A stretch of 64,000 nt of DNA from Clostridiales bacterium (lineage in GTDB: Bacteria; Bacillota; Clostridia; Christensenellales; CAG-138): the NCBI GenBank assembly GCA_012838425.1, contig DUPG01000008.1:1-64000 (forward strand), in the 5' to 3' direction. Shown here in pieces: positions 5,989 to 51,102 of this stretch; positions within the stretch are counted from its first letter, which is position 1; every line of letters starts with the position of its first letter. The notes under the pieces were generated by a model. The model worked only from the letters and a program-made list of their open reading frames with translations, was not told the origin of the DNA and made no database searches. The translations under genes were made by a program, and so were the position numbers.

Positions 5989-8900
5989 ATGAAAAGGCGG
6001 TGCAGAACTAAAGGCTTCTCGCTGATGGAGCTGATAATAGTTATCGGCGTAATCGGCGTGCTATTGTCAGTATTTATTCCGGTATACTCGCATACGGTTG
6101 AGAAATCTAAGCACAAATCAGCTACATCTGACGCGATAGTTACTTTGAAGTCGTTCGTTTCCGAAAATGTAACTGCGCGTGTCGCTACCGATGTGGTTAT
6201 ATTTGTTCAGAAGCCCGAAGGAGTATATGTATTCGGCTATCAGGCATCGAACGGTAGATTGCAGTACCCTGCAGAGTATTCGTTTGATGTGCCGTCTATT
6301 GACGCGTTGATTGAAAGCGAATACAACTCGAAGGATGGTGTATTCAGGCTAAAGACTATTGTAAATTCACAACAGGAAAAGGCATACCACAATCTTGCTG
6401 AATACGCTCCCGATAAATTTGATAACTGTGAGATTTACGAAGGTTATCTGCAAGGCACCGTGCACGATACCGATTATATTCCCACATTCCCCGTAAACTA
6501 CCTGCCCGGCACAGAAGACGAGGTTATAAACCTTCCTCCCGTAGTAAATGTAGAGGCTGGCGGCAAGCATACTATTCATGGTAATTATATCGCACGCAAT
6601 GACTATATGTTCGATGGCTGGTATGATTCGAGCGATCCCGAAATTACCTATATTCCCGGTCAGATTATTCGCGTTACGAAGCCCTTGACCCTTGTCGCGA
6701 AGTGGGTTCCCGTCGCCGAATACACATTGACATTTGACGGCAACGGCGGTACTGTCGTGCTTGCGGAGGGCCTGTCCGACCTTACTACCAAACACTTGGT
6801 AGGTACAAACATTACAAGCTATGTATTGGAATCCTACTCAACCCTCCCCGGTATGACATTCAGGGGCTGGTATTGTGAGGACATAATCTACAATTCCGAC
6901 TACACCGGCTCAATAATAATCAGGAAGGATATTACATTCAAGGCGATTTGGGAGAAGTTCACTCTCACATACGACCCGGGCGCAAAGAATGTAGTAAATA
7001 TGCCCGACCCGCTTACAGTAGAATATGATTTCGGCGAGCCTGTTACGATTTCTACGCAAATTCCCTTCTTAACAGAATCGGCGGTGTTCAGCCATTGGAA
7101 TTGCCTTGAGCTTGGAATGAACTTCGCTCCCGGCGCTTCGATTCCCGGCGGTATGCCCATGCAGAACATCACTCTGCGCGCTATGTGGACTGCACCTAAG
7201 TTTACGGTAATATACCAGCCCGGTTCAGTCGATGTAGAAGTAAAGGGCATGATTTCACCCTCGGTTGTCGATATTAACATCTTCAGCAGCGATGAGGTAT
7301 ATACATTGCCTGCTAACAAGCCCACAGCCGAAGGCTACAGGTTCATGGGCTGGGCAAGCTCATACCCCTCGCATGGCGGAGCTATATTCCCTGCCGGCGG
7401 TTCATTCCCGTATGACTTCACATATACCGGCGACACAGTATTATTGACAGCTATGTGGGAGAAGCTGTACGCGGTAAATTACAGGCGCGTTACTGAGGAT
7501 TCAGTCGAAATAATTCAAACAACATACCATATTGCGAACGAAAATGTACCTATTGAGGACATTATGCCCGACCCGTACAACGCATATCCCTTCGCCGGCT
7601 GGGCGTTGAGAATAGGACTTGACGGACCTATTTCGGATGTTTACCATTTCGGCAATTCGTTCATAATGCCTGCGGACAATGTATATCTCGATTCGCAGTG
7701 GATAATCACCAAGTATAAGATCACCTACTATGCGGGCGACGGTGTAACCGCAACGAATATGCCTGATGAAACAGAGATGTATTCACCGAATGAAATAGTG
7801 ACGCTCTCTAATATGACGCCCAAGCGTGAAGGCTATGTATTCTTCGCATGGCTGTATGAAACTCAGCCCTACAAGCCCGGTGGAAAATTCATAATGCCCG
7901 ACCATGATGTAGTGCTAACAGCCTCTTGGGTAACCACAAATACGGTAATATACAAGCATAATGCTGAGAATAACGGCGTAAAAGTACCGCCTAACGAGAA
8001 GTGCATAGCGCATACAGAGTATGTTATACCCTCAATGGTACCGAGATACGAGAATAAGAAGTGGGTATTTACAGGCTGGCTGAACAGCTATGACAATATG
8101 ATTTATCAGCCCGGTGCAGCGTTCATAATGCCCGAGCAGGATGTAACATTGACGGCTCAATGGATAAGCGCGTTTGAATTGACCTTTGCGACGCAGAACG
8201 ACGAGAATTTAGGCGTAATAAATATGCCGGAGCCTATTATAGTACGAAAGAATGTCGAGTTTCAGATACCCGATACGGTTATTGTGCGAACAGACGGCGT
8301 TAACAAGGTATTCGCATACTGGCAGGAAAGGGGCAAGACTAATGGCACAAAGTACTACCCCGGTGATACCATTAAGATAAACAAGGATATAACGCTTGAC
8401 GCTTTTTGGGGAGACCCGATTACGATTACATTTGATGATGGCGTAAGCAGTCAGCAAATACAGGTTCCCGAAACCGTACAAGGTGTCAGCCCATGGATTA
8501 AATACACTGTACCCATGTTTGAGCCTCAGCGTCCCAACTATCAGTTTATGGGCTGGAAGCTCACACACAGCAACGGCACAAATACATCATTGGGTTCAAA
8601 CTTCATAGTGACTCCGGGCGAAACATTCCAGATCCCGCAGTCAACGGGCCTGAAGCTCACAGCTCAATGGGCAAGAAGCTCCGATGTAAGACGCTATACA
8701 GTAACTGTTGTTATGTACGATGTAATAAACAACGAATATGCAGGCATGCAAACATTTGATTTGTGGATGCTGTATAATGGCGGTTCGTTCACGCTGCATA
8801 ACAACAACTTTACAGCATTCCTGCCCGGCTACAAACCGTATGGCAACTTCTCACAAAAGTTCACCTCAAACTCGGGCTCTATATCGTTGCCGTACATTTC

Positions 8901-10005
8901 GGTAAATGTATATAAGTACGATATAATAGACGGTGAAGAATACATACATATTACCAACAGCTACGGTTTGCAAACAGGCATAAGGCAGGACCTCTCCGCC
9001 AACTACATACAAAAGAGGGATATCGCGTTATATTCCTACATGCAGCCGATAGGCTATATATCCGACACGCAGTACGAGTCCTTCACAGGCAAGTATGATG
9101 GCGACGGGCACACGATTTCAGGCTTTGAGGCAGCGTATTACGGAAGCTCATACATTGGGCTATTCTCACGCAACAAGGGCGAAATCAGAAACCTGAACCT
9201 CATTGTAGGCGAAGTTGCGGGTAGGTTCTTGGTTGGCGGCTTGTGCGGTCAGAACGATGGTTTAATCTACAACTGCACAGTTACTTCAACATGGCAGATT
9301 TACACCACAGAGTTCCTTTACAAGATGTTCGGCTTAGGCGAAAACGGTGAAGAGGATTACCGCTTTGCTTCCTTCACGGGCGGCATTACGGGCTTCAACA
9401 CAGGTGTTATAGACCTTTGCGGATTCAGCGGTCCTATTAAGAATATGTATATGCATGTAACCGAGATTTGCGGCGAACAGCTTAGCGGATTATCGGGCTG
9501 CATAGGCGGCATCGCAGGATACAACAAGGGCGAAATTGAGCGCAGCTGGGCATTTGCCGACATAAACGGTGCTGTAAAAACCAAGGCAGGCGGCACAAGC
9601 ACGAACGGCAACTGGAACTACATTGGCGGTCTTGTTGGCATGAATTTCGGCGGTACAGTAAGCGACTGCTGGTCTAACTCCTTTGTAGTAGGCGCATACG
9701 ATGTAGGCGGCTTGGTAGGTGCTAATTCAGGCGAAGTCAATAATCCTTGGTCATATGTTCGCGGACTAACCTGTTCGGCTCAGGCTCACTACAGATATGG
9801 CGACGCTATGGGTATTGTAAGCAATCAGGGCGAAGCGCAGTACATCTATTACGAAGCGTCGAGCGCATGCGGTTTGGGTACGCGCGTTACTTCTCTGAAA
9901 ACCGGTACGCAGCTTCCCGGTCTTAGCGTAAAGGTTTGGGAGTACAGCATAGGCAGCCGTCCGCAGATTGACGAAAACAAGACGAGCTTAGCAAACAACA
10001 AGTAA
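5989..10005 (+). CDS. Giant prepilin-like surface protein: type IV prepilin N-terminal module + nine InlB-type B-repeats + GLUG-rich C-terminus
   Basis: N-term KG|FSLMELIIVIGVIG; repeated FxGW..PG....(V/I)TL.A.W units; C-term SYIGLFSRNKGEIRNL, VGGLCGQNDGLIYNC, IGGIAGYNKGEIE, VGGLVGANSGEV. Confidence 0.85.
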   Translation: MKRRCRTKGFSLMELIIVIGVIGVLLSVFIPVYSHTVEKSKHKSATSDAIVTLKSFVSENVTARVATDVVIFVQKPEGVYVFGYQASNGRLQYPAEYSFDVPSIDALIESEYNSKDGVFRLKTIVNSQQEKAYHNLAEYAPDKFDNCEIYEGYLQGTVHDTDYIPTFPVNYLPGTEDEVINLPPVVNVEAGGKHTIHGNYIARNDYMFDGWYDSSDPEITYIPGQIIRVTKPLTLVAKWVPVAEYTLTFDGNGGTVVLAEGLSDLTTKHLVGTNITSYVLESYSTLPGMTFRGWYCEDIIYNSDYTGSIIIRKDITFKAIWEKFTLTYDPGAKNVVNMPDPLTVEYDFGEPVTISTQIPFLTESAVFSHWNCLELGMNFAPGASIPGGMPMQNITLRAMWTAPKFTVIYQPGSVDVEVKGMISPSVVDINIFSSDEVYTLPANKPTAEGYRFMGWASSYPSHGGAIFPAGGSFPYDFTYTGDTVLLTAMWEKLYAVNYRRVTEDSVEIIQTTYHIANENVPIEDIMPDPYNAYPFAGWALRIGLDGPISDVYHFGNSFIMPADNVYLDSQWIITKYKITYYAGDGVTATNMPDETEMYSPNEIVTLSNMTPKREGYVFFAWLYETQPYKPGGKFIMPDHDVVLTASWVTTNTVIYKHNAENNGVKVPPNEKCIAHTEYVIPSMVPRYENKKWVFTGWLNSYDNMIYQPGAAFIMPEQDVTLTAQWISAFELTFATQNDENLGVINMPEPIIVRKNVEFQIPDTVIVRTDGVNKVFAYWQERGKTNGTKYYPGDTIKINKDITLDAFWGDPITITFDDGVSSQQIQVPETVQGVSPWIKYTVPMFEPQRPNYQFMGWKLTHSNGTNTSLGSNFIVTPGETFQIPQSTGLKLTAQWARSSDVRRYTVTVVMYDVINNEYAGMQTFDLWMLYNGGSFTLHNNNFTAFLPGYKPYGNFSQKFTSNSGSISLPYISVNVYKYDIIDGEEYIHITNSYGLQTGIRQDLSANYIQKRDIALYSYMQPIGYISDTQYESFTGKYDGDGHTISGFEAAYYGSSYIGLFSRNKGEIRNLNLIVGEVAGRFLVGGLCGQNDGLIYNCTVTSTWQIYTTEFLYKMFGLGENGEEDYRFASFTGGITGFNTGVIDLCGFSGPIKNMYMHVTEICGEQLSGLSGCIGGIAGYNKGEIERSWAFADINGAVKTKAGGTSTNGNWNYIGGLVGMNFGGTVSDCWSNSFVVGAYDVGGLVGANSGEVNNPWSYVRGLTCSAQAHYRYGDAMGIVSNQGEAQYIYYEASSACGLGTRVTSLKTGTQLPGLSVKVWEYSIGSRPQIDENKTSLANNK

Positions 10006-13796: not shown

Positions 13797-14852
13797 ATGA
13801 AAAACACAATCAAAAAAGCAATATGTTTAGCTTTACTTGTGTTGTTTGTGCTTGGAAGCTTCTCGCTTTCAGGCTGTAACAGCAAGGAAACACTGTATAT
13901 TCTAAACTGGGGAGATTACATTGACCCCGATGTAATAGCTAAGTTCGAAGCGGAATACGGCGTAAAGGTCCATTACGACACAATGGCAAACAATGAGGAA
14001 ATGCTTATAAAGCTTGAATCCTCAACGAATATTTATGATTTGTGCTTTCCGTCAGACTACATTATTGAAAAGCTGATTAAAAGCGACCTTTTGCGCGAAA
14101 TCAACAAGGACAATATCCCCAACATAAAGAATATTGACGAGCAGTTCTTAGATTTGTCCTTCGACCCCGGCAACAAGTATTCTGTGCCTTATATGTGGGG
14201 CACCTTAGGAATACTCTACAATACAACTATGGTAGATGAGCCGGTCGATTCGTGGGGCGTGCTTTTTGATGAAAAATATGAGGGTCAGATATATATGTAT
14301 GACAGCATGCGCGACTCAATAGGTGTTGCGCTGAAATACTTGGGCTATTCACTTAACACGCGCAACGAAGCAGAGGTAGCTGAAGCCCGCGATCTGCTAA
14401 TACAGCAAAGGTCAATAGTAAAGGCATACCTTGGCGACACTATTAAAGACGCTATGATAGGCGGCGAGGGCGCTTTGGCAGTAGTATATTCAGGCGACGC
14501 GGTATGGTGCGTTGACCCAGAGGAGGGCAACCCTGATTTAGCATATGTAGTTCCCAACGAGGGCAGCAATCTGTGGTTCGACAACGCAATAATACCCAAG
14601 ACATCAAAGAACCCCGAGCTTGCCGAGAAGTTTATAAACTTCCTGAACGACCCTGAGATAGCAATGCAGAACAGCCAGTACCTAGGCTATTCGACTCCCA
14701 ATAAGGCAGCATTGGCGCTTATGGACGAGTCATGGCTTGAGAATGAGATCTATAATCCCCCGCAGGAGGTTATCGACAGGTGCGAGATATTCCATGACTT
14801 AGGTGAGTTTACAGCGGTGTTCTCAGAAGCGTGGGATGAGATAATATATTAA
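13797..14852 (+). CDS. potD: Spermidine/putrescine-binding lipoprotein
   Basis: Lipobox SLSGCNSK; LYILNWGDYIDPDVIAKFE; RBS caggga before 13797. Confidence 0.9.
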   Translation: MKNTIKKAICLALLVLFVLGSFSLSGCNSKETLYILNWGDYIDPDVIAKFEAEYGVKVHYDTMANNEEMLIKLESSTNIYDLCFPSDYIIEKLIKSDLLREINKDNIPNIKNIDEQFLDLSFDPGNKYSVPYMWGTLGILYNTTMVDEPVDSWGVLFDEKYEGQIYMYDSMRDSIGVALKYLGYSLNTRNEAEVAEARDLLIQQRSIVKAYLGDTIKDAMIGGEGALAVVYSGDAVWCVDPEEGNPDLAYVVPNEGSNLWFDNAIIPKTSKNPELAEKFINFLNDPEIAMQNSQYLGYSTPNKAALALMDESWLENEIYNPPQEVIDRCEIFHDLGEFTAVFSEAWDEIIY

Positions 14853-47885: not shown

Positions 47886-48644
47886 CTACTCTCCCCACTT
47901 GCCCAGCAGTTCGTTCATAAGCGAATACACGTCAAGACCATACGCTTCTTCTAAATTCGCTTTTGTCAATACTTCCTCGGTTTCCCCGAATGCCACGGCT
48001 CTGCCCTTGCTCAAAAGCAGCGTGTGCGTGCCATACGCCTTTGCCAAGCTTAAATCGTGAACAACCGTAATCACAGCTTTGCCCTCATGCTTCAGCCAAT
48101 CGCTTATCAAGTCGAACAGCTGCTTCTGAAACGTAATATCCAAGTGGCTCGTGGGCTCGTCTAATACGAGTATGTTGGGGTCCAACGCAAACAGTTGAGC
48201 CAAAAAGGTGCGTTGCAGCTCGCCGCCGGACAGCGTGAGTATGGATTGATTCGCAATATCGGATAAGCCGCATACGTTCAGCGCGTATTCTATCATTTCT
48301 TCGTCCTTCTTGCTTAAAGTGGAGAAAAGCCCTTGCGAATACGCATACCGCCCCATCTTCACCACTTCGCCAACTGTAAAGGAATAGTCAACCGATAAAC
48401 CCTGCTTCATTACTCCTATTCTTTTCACAAATTCCGCAGGCTTGAAGCGCTTAATGTCCACTCCGTCATACTCAAATATGCCTTCATAATTCAGCTTTTG
48501 CGAAACAGCGTTTACAAGCGTGGACTTGCCCGCGCCGTTTCTGCCAACAATCATAAGCCATTCGCCGGCGTTTAATGTGAAGCCTACGCCGTCAATAAGC
48601 GTTTTTTCCTGCACCTTTACGGTTATGCTATGAGCCTTCAGCAT
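47886..48644 (-). CDS. btuD: FecE/BtuD-type ABC transporter ATP-binding protein (corrinoid uptake)
   Basis: Walker A GRNGAGKST, LSGGELQR, LVLDEPTSHLD; behind cobalamin riboswitch operon. Confidence 0.85.
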   Translation of the reverse strand: MLKAHSITVKVQEKTLIDGVGFTLNAGEWLMIVGRNGAGKSTLVNAVSQKLNYEGIFEYDGVDIKRFKPAEFVKRIGVMKQGLSVDYSFTVGEVVKMGRYAYSQGLFSTLSKKDEEMIEYALNVCGLSDIANQSILTLSGGELQRTFLAQLFALDPNILVLDEPTSHLDITFQKQLFDLISDWLKHEGKAVITVVHDLSLAKAYGTHTLLLSKGRAVAFGETEEVLTKANLEEAYGLDVYSLMNELLGKWGE

Positions 48645-49687
48645 CAGCTTTTCTTCCTGTTTTTATAGAATATTATTACGAACACTATTGAGCCAACAAA
48701 CGAGGTTACAACGCCAATAGGCAGCTCTAACGGTGAAAGCAGAGTACGCGCTAAAAGGTCGCTAAGCATTAAAAATATCGCCCCCGTGAATATTACCGCA
48801 GGGAACAGCTTTTTGTGATTTGCGCTCACTAACATTCTTGTTATATGCGGCACAACCAAGCCCACAAAGCCTATGGTTCCGCCAATGGAAACGCAAACGC
48901 CTATTATCGCCGACACGCTGAACAGTATCAGAAGCTTAACCCGTTTTATGTTCACACCTATATTCCTTGCGTTGTCCTCACCTATCGCAAAAGCGTTCAG
49001 CTCGGTTGAAAATCTAAGTATTATTCCGCCGAAAACCATAAGCACAGCGAATAATATGATTACGTTCGTGTAAGTGCTGCCCGCTAATGAGCCCATAGTC
49101 CAGAAAGTGATATGCTTTACCTTGTCTGCCGCGAATGTAATAGCAAGGCTAATAATGCTGTTCGCGAACATTGAGAAAACAACGCCCATCAAAATAATAG
49201 TGTTCGTAGAAAGCGAAAAATCAAGCCTATACGACAGGGAAAGTATCAGTATAAGCGAAGCGAAAGCGAATATAAGCGCCATTACCATAGTGCCTGCAAG
49301 CGGAATGTTAGGAATTGATATCCCGAAAGCAATCGCAAGCACAGCGCCTAAGCTTGCGCCCGAAGATACACCCAAGGTCGAGCCCTCTGCCAGCGGGTTT
49401 TTGAGTAGCCCCTGCATAGCCGCTCCGCATATTGAGAGGGAAATGCCCACTAACGCGACAGACAGCACACGCGGCAGTCTAACGGATACTATAACCGAAT
49501 ACGCTATGCCCTCAGGCACGGGCTTTGCGAATATTGCGCTGTATATAGCGCGAAATACATCTTTAATGGGTATGTTTACGCTGCCCAAGCACACGCACAA
49601 TATTAGCGTGCACAGCGTAAGTATCGCGAAAATTATATAAGGAAGCGTGTTAAAGCCTTCTCTTTTTAGTTTAAGTTTTTTCTTCAT
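48644..49687 (-). CDS. btuC: FecCD/BtuC-type ABC transporter permease (corrinoid uptake)
   Basis: RLPRVLSVALVGISLSICGAAMQGLLKNPLAEGSTLGVSSGASLGA; GFVGLVVPHITRML. Confidence 0.88.
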   Translation of the reverse strand: MKKKLKLKREGFNTLPYIIFAILTLCTLILCVCLGSVNIPIKDVFRAIYSAIFAKPVPEGIAYSVIVSVRLPRVLSVALVGISLSICGAAMQGLLKNPLAEGSTLGVSSGASLGAVLAIAFGISIPNIPLAGTMVMALIFAFASLILILSLSYRLDFSLSTNTIILMGVVFSMFANSIISLAITFAADKVKHITFWTMGSLAGSTYTNVIILFAVLMVFGGIILRFSTELNAFAIGEDNARNIGVNIKRVKLLILFSVSAIIGVCVSIGGTIGFVGLVVPHITRMLVSANHKKLFPAVIFTGAIFLMLSDLLARTLLSPLELPIGVVTSFVGSIVFVIIFYKNRKKS

Positions 49688-49761
49688 ATATCCGTGAACA
49701 ATTTTCGGGCGCACACTCGGCACGCCCTTTATCGTAAAGTATTAGGTTAAATCAATGTAGC

Positions 49762-51102
49762 TTACTCGTATATGAACGCGTATAATGCGTTAGCCCCGTC
49801 AACCAAGCGCGGACCGGGGCGGGTCAGCGTATCTGCATTCGCCAAGAATACATTGTCGTTCATAACCGCCTTCATGTTTTCCCAGCCTGCGCGGCTCTTA
49901 ATCTCGTCAACGGGATGCGTGCCCTCGCCATAGTACATAGTAACTGTAACTATATAATCGGGGTCGCGCGCGATAACCTGCTCCTCCGATATTGCCGCCC
50001 AGCCGTCAACATCCTCAAATGCGTTTTTCAAGCCTAACATATTCGCAAGATCGTCCATAAATGTATTTTTGCCGGCAGTCCACAGCCCGAATTCTAACGG
50101 GGACACCTCAAAGTAAACCGTTTCGGTTCCGTCGCCCGTGGATTGCTCAATTATCTGCGCGAACTGGCTCTTCATGCTTGCTACTAAGCTTTCAGCGGCG
50201 GCGTTTTCGCCTGTAACTTTGCCGACTAAGCGTATTGCGGTATATACTCCTTCAATGTCGAAGGCTTCTATCGCTACAACCGTAATGCCTGCGTTCTCCA
50301 ATGCCTGCGCGTGCTCGGGTGTTTGATTCATGGTAGCCATTATTACTACATCAGGGTTCAGCGCAATTATGCTTTCAATATTAGTTTCAAAGCCCGATTG
50401 AACGGAGGGAACGGACAGCACCTCGGCAGGATAATCGCAGTAAGCCCCTCTGCCTACCAGCTTGTCGCCAGCGCCTATTGCGTACAGTATTTCACATTCG
50501 GAAGCGGATAGAGCTACAATTCTATCAGCAGGCTTGTCAAGGTGAATAGCTCTGCCCTTCATATCAACGAAGTTTATTCCCGTTTGAGCGGGTACAGAGC
50601 TTGATATGCTCTCAGCCACGGAATCCAACAGCACGCCCTCAAAAAGCGTTACATTATTGTGCGCCTTAAAGCCTAACTTGTGTGTTACATTGTGAAATTC
50701 GCTTGGATTGACAGGGTCGTACGAAAGCACAAATGCCTTGCCCTCTTCCTCGCCGTTTGTAGAGTGAAGCGCGTTCACAAGCTCGGTAACGCTTGAGTAA
50801 TTCTCATATGCGTTGTATTTTGACTGCATCAGCGTAAACTGCATGAACTGATAGCCATAAACGTAGTAAGCGTCGGCTTTTTCGATAATGATTATAAGAT
50901 TGTCTATTACATGGTTGTCGCGGCTTTCGCTTACGAATTGAGTGCTTATGTTTTTTGCGTCGGCAAGTGCGGATTTTGCGTTTGCATTGTCAATCATTTT
51001 ATTGAATGCAGGGAAAAGAATAGCCGACAAAATGCCTATTATCGCAATTACGATAAGCAACTCAACAATGGTAAAGGCTTTTTTAGAACTCCTTGTCTTC
51101 AT
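49762..51102 (-). CDS. Prepilin-like N-terminal module fused to BtuF-like corrinoid-binding protein
   Basis: N-term KKA|FTIVELLIVIAIIGILSAI (type IV prepilin); residues ~175-446 a complete BtuF-like fold (RIVALSASECEILYAIGAGDKLVGRGAYCDYPAEV...TRPGPRLVDGAN); no lipobox Cys. Confidence 0.88.
   Translation of the reverse strand: MKTRSSKKAFTIVELLIVIAIIGILSAILFPAFNKMIDNANAKSALADAKNISTQFVSESRDNHVIDNLIIIIEKADAYYVYGYQFMQFTLMQSKYNAYENYSSVTELVNALHSTNGEEEGKAFVLSYDPVNPSEFHNVTHKLGFKAHNNVTLFEGVLLDSVAESISSSVPAQTGINFVDMKGRAIHLDKPADRIVALSASECEILYAIGAGDKLVGRGAYCDYPAEVLSVPSVQSGFETNIESIIALNPDVVIMATMNQTPEHAQALENAGITVVAIEAFDIEGVYTAIRLVGKVTGENAAAESLVASMKSQFAQIIEQSTGDGTETVYFEVSPLEFGLWTAGKNTFMDDLANMLGLKNAFEDVDGWAAISEEQVIARDPDYIVTVTMYYGEGTHPVDEIKSRAGWENMKAVMNDNVFLANADTLTRPGPRLVDGANALYAFIYE

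Follow-up and report, generated by a model that had tools for sequence, protein, structure and literature searches.

The window, a stretch of 64,000 nucleotides at the start of contig DUPG01000008.1 of a Clostridiales bacterium, contains a gene (49762..51102, minus strand) that fuses a type IV prepilin module to a BtuF-type substrate-binding domain. The encoded protein probably serves as binding subunit to the one corrinoid ABC importer recognisable in this organism and is held in the membrane by its pilin helix after cleavage by the prepilin peptidase PilD and possibly polymerised into a pilus; cleavage, location, binding of vitamin B12, docking and incorporation into a filament are inferred. 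The fusion, its operon and riboswitch, their conservation, the genes of the pilus machinery and the lack of any detectable backup can be read directly from the DNA sequence. The corrinoid ligand is inferred only from the riboswitch and the protein family, without binding data. The interpretation offered in a first-pass annotation of this DNA, that a prepilin-type anchor carries the BtuF domain of the adjoining importer, is supported; its suggestion that such display extends the capture radius for corrinoids is speculative.

The fusion gene and its operon

The fusion is a single ORF of 446 amino acids with an ATG start codon and GGAGG immediately 5', exactly at the coordinates that the first-pass annotation had assigned to it. 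Residues 1-30 (51013..51102, minus strand) are a class III leader, MKTRSSKKA followed by FTIVELLIVIAIIGILSAILFP with the predicted cleavage site KKA/FTIVE, and the hydrophobic segment alpha-1N; the canonical pilin features F+1, E+5, G+14 and P+22 are present. Pfam N_methyl (PF07963) matches residues 4-30 above its cut-off (E 9.6e-7), bearing out the annotated signal KKA/F with Glu at +5 and satisfying the modular-pilin criterion of an N-terminal class III signal or N_methyl motif that includes E+5. Solved structures that match the N-terminus are Geobacter and other pilins, over alpha-1. Inspection of the protein sequence revealed no lipobox, as had been claimed. Residues 31-164 (50611..51012, minus strand) comprise alpha-1C and a globular head, recognised as a recurrent pilin module by matching ORFs of the genome, by alignment and by AF2 prediction; residues 165-174 (50581..50610, minus strand) are a short linker of about 10 amino acids, delimited by alignment with the fusion of a sister species; and residues 175-446 with the stop codon (49762..50580, minus strand) encode the BtuF-type substrate-binding domain, identified by Pfam and Foldseek.

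That this last domain is complete, as the annotation held, is confirmed by a match of Pfam Peripla_BP_2, which is not specific to pili, to residues 195-423 (E 1.3e-35). Comparison of the C-terminal part with solved structures returned 4m7o (E 6e-36) as well as BtuF of V. cholerae and E. coli, and a Foldseek search with the predicted BtuF half returned 4m7o (E 6e-18) and E. coli BtuF 1n2z (E 1e-12). The NCBIfam BtuF model (PRK03379) matches residues 190-440 with 92.1 bits and does not reach the equivalog cut-off of 234 bits, so the domain is named BtuF-type rather than a BtuF equivalog. In an alignment with E. coli BtuF, E243 and E374 of the fusion fall opposite glutamates by which that protein docks on its permease; two tryptophans with which E. 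coli BtuF contacts its ligand are not conserved. No record in a plasmid collection covered 80% of the fusion.

The gene sits between a cobalamin riboswitch on its 5' side and transporter genes on its 3' side, an arrangement that was annotated correctly. The riboswitch aptamer (RF00174; 51181..51365, minus strand; cmscan 77.1 bits, full length) lies 78 nt upstream of the ATG, and the genes of a FecCD/BtuC-type permease (48644..49723, minus strand; PF01032, E 1.2e-84) and a BtuD/FecE-type ABC ATPase (47886..48644, minus strand; PF00005, E 4e-28) lie downstream. The criteria for a BtuCDF-type importer, a Peripla_BP_2 fold adjoining FecCD and ATPase genes with a cobalamin riboswitch upstream, are satisfied. 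The source genome (94.8% complete) and a MAG of a sister species have one Peripla_BP_2 match and one cobalamin riboswitch each; no second riboswitch was found in either, nor any second Peripla_BP_2 protein, in agreement with the expectation that no conventional BtuF also serves this transporter. Both genomes are incomplete MAGs, and the source genome sequence was examined around the matches, not end to end.

The recurrent pilin module and the pilus machinery

The first 165 or so residues of the fusion recur in about 20 ORFs of the source genome that code for large proteins, in many ORFs of the sister MAG and in many of G022, which represents another genus of the family. Alignment indicates a single head family with the motifs ANAKSALSDARNTLT, VIFVxKAxxYYVFGY, FxNLTD and VFDGFLIG, ending at the start of the cargo, and residues 31-164 of the fusion are a complete copy of it. 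The cargos with Pfam matches are Flg_new/InlB-type repeats, GLUG and Big_2, mostly of adhesin type; among the module proteins of the source genome that were scanned with Pfam, the fusion alone carries a transporter-type cargo. There are 24 N_methyl motifs in the source genome (1.48 Mb), 21 in the sister MAG and 16 in G022; in the same search, genomes elsewhere in the family have 0-5, most relatives having none. This expansion points to the pilin as a general display platform. For the annotated pilin-like head of about 130 residues, membership of a pilin-module family is confirmed (residues 1-164) and the fold is uncertain: the head corresponds to no named Pfam domain, and its AF2 model from a shallow alignment (a long helix at residues 12-63 plus a small sheet; pLDDT 75) has no significant match in the PDB. 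The grounds for calling the head "pilin-like" are accordingly its alpha-1 segment and the context of the module family. In a prediction of the full fusion, the BtuF half fits BtuF-type structures well and the head half is of low confidence.

Several other genes bear on the module family. The window encodes a second protein with the same prepilin module (5989..10005, plus strand; 1338 amino acids, with Flg_new (InlB-type) and GLUG repeats), recognised by module match, Pfam and alignment, and its module has an orthologue in the sister MAG (L097). Two module genes of the source genome are broken within the head (L025:5916-6290/6377-7900 and L029:4249-4545/4567-7044), one by a frame change and one by an in-frame TAG, which may reflect decay, sequencing error or on/off variation. 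The proteins encoded at L041:5496-5924 and L040:4994-5593 are head-like (YYVFWY/YYSFKY-like motif) and have an ordinary membrane segment in place of the prepilin motif; one of them is encoded inside the pilus operon. The module expansion of G022 (L100-L110) is parallel to that of the source genome, and no Peripla_BP_2 protein was found in G022. A buffalo-cecum Clostridia MAG encodes a prepilin-type protein of 1025 amino acids (L080:36-3113) whose head differs and whose C-terminal part is long.

The prepilin peptidase that the first-pass annotation expected elsewhere in the genome is present (PF01478, E 5e-17): on contig C8, PilD is encoded together with PilB (E 1e-165), PilC (GspF-type) and several small prepilins, and PilT is encoded on contig C2. 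Many module proteins of the source genome have Ala instead of Gly at position -1, and cleavage of the fusion after Ala9 is expected for that reason. Archaeal Bas machinery was not recognised in the source genome: the BasE model scored 34.6 bits where its cut-off requires 1000, and no dedicated bas operon was found.

Conservation of the fusion and exchange of the anchor

The sister-species MAG, of the same genus, has the same fusion (L078:3838-5163; 73% identity) with the same riboswitch and gene order, including FecCD and ATPase, and F+1, E+5 and P+22 are kept in the fusions of both species. The modules of the two fusions cluster as one orthologous pair with support of 100/99, which indicates a single fusion event that predates the split of the species. 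Identity between the species is 81% in the BtuF domain and 57% in the head, although synonymous differences approach saturation (pS 0.72-0.81 across the two main parts); taken together, these values imply that both halves are constrained, the cargo more than the head.

A comparison across 103 genomes of the family gave 39 orthologues in other genera (counted by eye from a table; 51-63% identity); these begin to align only at about residue 156-176 of the fusion, and the pilin half is missing. Of 24 close orthologues inspected at the N-terminus, 20 show a signal peptide followed by a Cys, as is typical of lipoproteins, and the other four a plain signal-like start. FecCD lies downstream in nearly all of the close orthologues inspected, and a cobalamin riboswitch lies upstream in all eight orthologues tested. 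Since unfused, mostly lipoprotein-like orthologues keep FecCD and the riboswitch, the operon is inferred to be ancestral and the anchor alone to have changed. Monoderm bacteria normally make their substrate-binding proteins as lipoproteins, a monoderm envelope being assumed here from the affiliation to Clostridia, and the comparison of sequences implies that within one genus a lipoprotein anchor was exchanged for a type IV pilin. Loss of the lipoprotein pathway cannot explain the exchange and was ruled out as its cause, because LspA is encoded in the source genome and other substrate-binding proteins keep the lipobox, including one in the window at 13797 (plus strand). With operon and regulation unmoved, one transporter can be compared directly before and after its anchor changed.

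Proposed function and known systems

On the preferred reading, the ancestral lipoprotein signal and linker gave way to a ready-made type IV pilin module, which serves the organism as a general surface carrier. When corrinoid is scarce, the riboswitch would permit expression; the precursor would insert into the membrane and PilD would cut between Ala9 and Phe10; alpha-1N would keep the mature protein anchored in the cytoplasmic membrane, the pilin head acting as spacer; and the BtuF domain, on its linker, would capture corrinoid and dock on the FecCD permease of the neighbouring gene. A fraction of the protein may polymerise as a minor or tip pilin. A pool held at the membrane is a simpler mode than extended capture because the permease sits in the membrane.

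Several other readings of the fusion were weighed. The protein might instead be polymerised into the type IV pilus with BtuF domains along the filament or at its tip, so that corrinoid is caught at a distance from the membrane and brought in by PilT retraction or by passing from subunit to subunit. This is possible but doubtful: the genome encodes a pilus machine that includes a retraction ATPase, the carrier is common to about 20 other proteins, both species retain F+1, E+5 and P+22, and in Archaea PilB/PilC homologues are required to incorporate sugar-binding proteins (PMC4371748), but the ligand would still have to reach the membrane permease, no module protein has been proved to polymerise, and the preservation of E+5 in two species counts for little. 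Sequence cannot decide between a membrane-held and a polymerised protein, because both readings keep F+1, E+5 and P+22. A fuller version, a bacterial bindosome in which BtuF domains are polymerised in retractile type IV pili, PilT retraction brings the loaded subunits to the membrane importer and the lineage has made its pilus into a scaffold that displays about 20 different cargos in general, is considered unlikely but is not ruled out.

A loss of the transport role, making the BtuF domain a pilus-borne adhesin or sensor that binds ligand, would bring the fusion into line with the other module proteins, most of whose cargos look adhesive (Flg_new, GLUG, Big_2); it is very improbable for a gene that remains in an operon with the riboswitch, FecCD and the ATPase, encodes the sole candidate binding protein for that transporter and is better conserved in its BtuF part than in its head. 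Two genes wrongly joined by assembly or annotation could be suspected in a draft MAG in which two sister module genes are disrupted. Scarcely any weight is given to such an artefact, and the possibility of two separate ORFs was rejected, because the separately assembled sister-species MAG has the fusion at the corresponding position, with the same riboswitch and gene order and with orthologous modules; this conclusion, which agrees with the first-pass annotation of a single gene, comes from comparison alone, without transcript data. The preferred reading remains a membrane-held binding subunit.

The first-pass annotation knew of no described example. Precedents in kind do exist: modular pilins have been described in bacteria (PMC8179133), and prepilin-type substrate-binding proteins in the bindosome of Archaea (PMC4371748). 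As for the fusion itself, a search of a limited literature collection found no description of a bacterial SBP-pilin, a BtuF-pilin or a bacterial class III SBP, though an earlier listing in Dataset S1 of PMC8179133 is possible. Beyond the order, genome contigs were scanned with only two peptide patterns, and independent fusions elsewhere are not excluded by so narrow a search. A second fusion in a Sedimentisphaerales MAG was rejected since the pilin and BtuF genes are separate and adjoining; at this locus (L079:3550-5698), the prepilin-type gene lies just upstream of the BtuF-type gene and an ATPase gene.

The importer resembles BtuCDF of E. coli in its BtuF-type fold, FecCD permease, ATPase and cobalamin riboswitch; E. 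coli BtuF is free in the periplasm and the relatives within the family are mostly lipoproteins, whereas the fusion has a pilin anchor and a PRK03379 score under the cut-off. Modular type IV pilins such as PilB and PilC of Streptococcus sanguinis are widespread, with 264 architectures, and the modules named in the main text of the paper that describes them are vWA, lectin, carbohydrate-binding and peptidase, without mention of transporter binding proteins (PMC8179133). The fusion is like them in its N-terminal pilin module and short loop to a non-pilus domain (9 residues in PilB, about 10 here) and differs in that its cargo is an ABC solute-binding protein within its own transporter operon, a new type of cargo for modular pilins as far as could be found. 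Subunits of the archaeal bindosome (Bas system) are SBPs with prepilin leaders, argued to be SBPs that acquired a leader rather than descendants of pilins (PMC4371748). In both systems an importer SBP bears a type IV prepilin leader and the cell has a prepilin peptidase and PilB/PilC homologues; they differ in that the fusion accompanies bacterial PilB, PilT and GspF-type PilC, has an inferred vitamin-type ligand and contains a pilin head that separates the leader from the SBP. By architecture the fusion may be classed as a modular pilin, and by function possibly as an analogue of the bindosome rather than a member of it. It would widen the range of modular pilins beyond adhesion to the import of nutrients and provide a bacterial test case for the bindosome idea.
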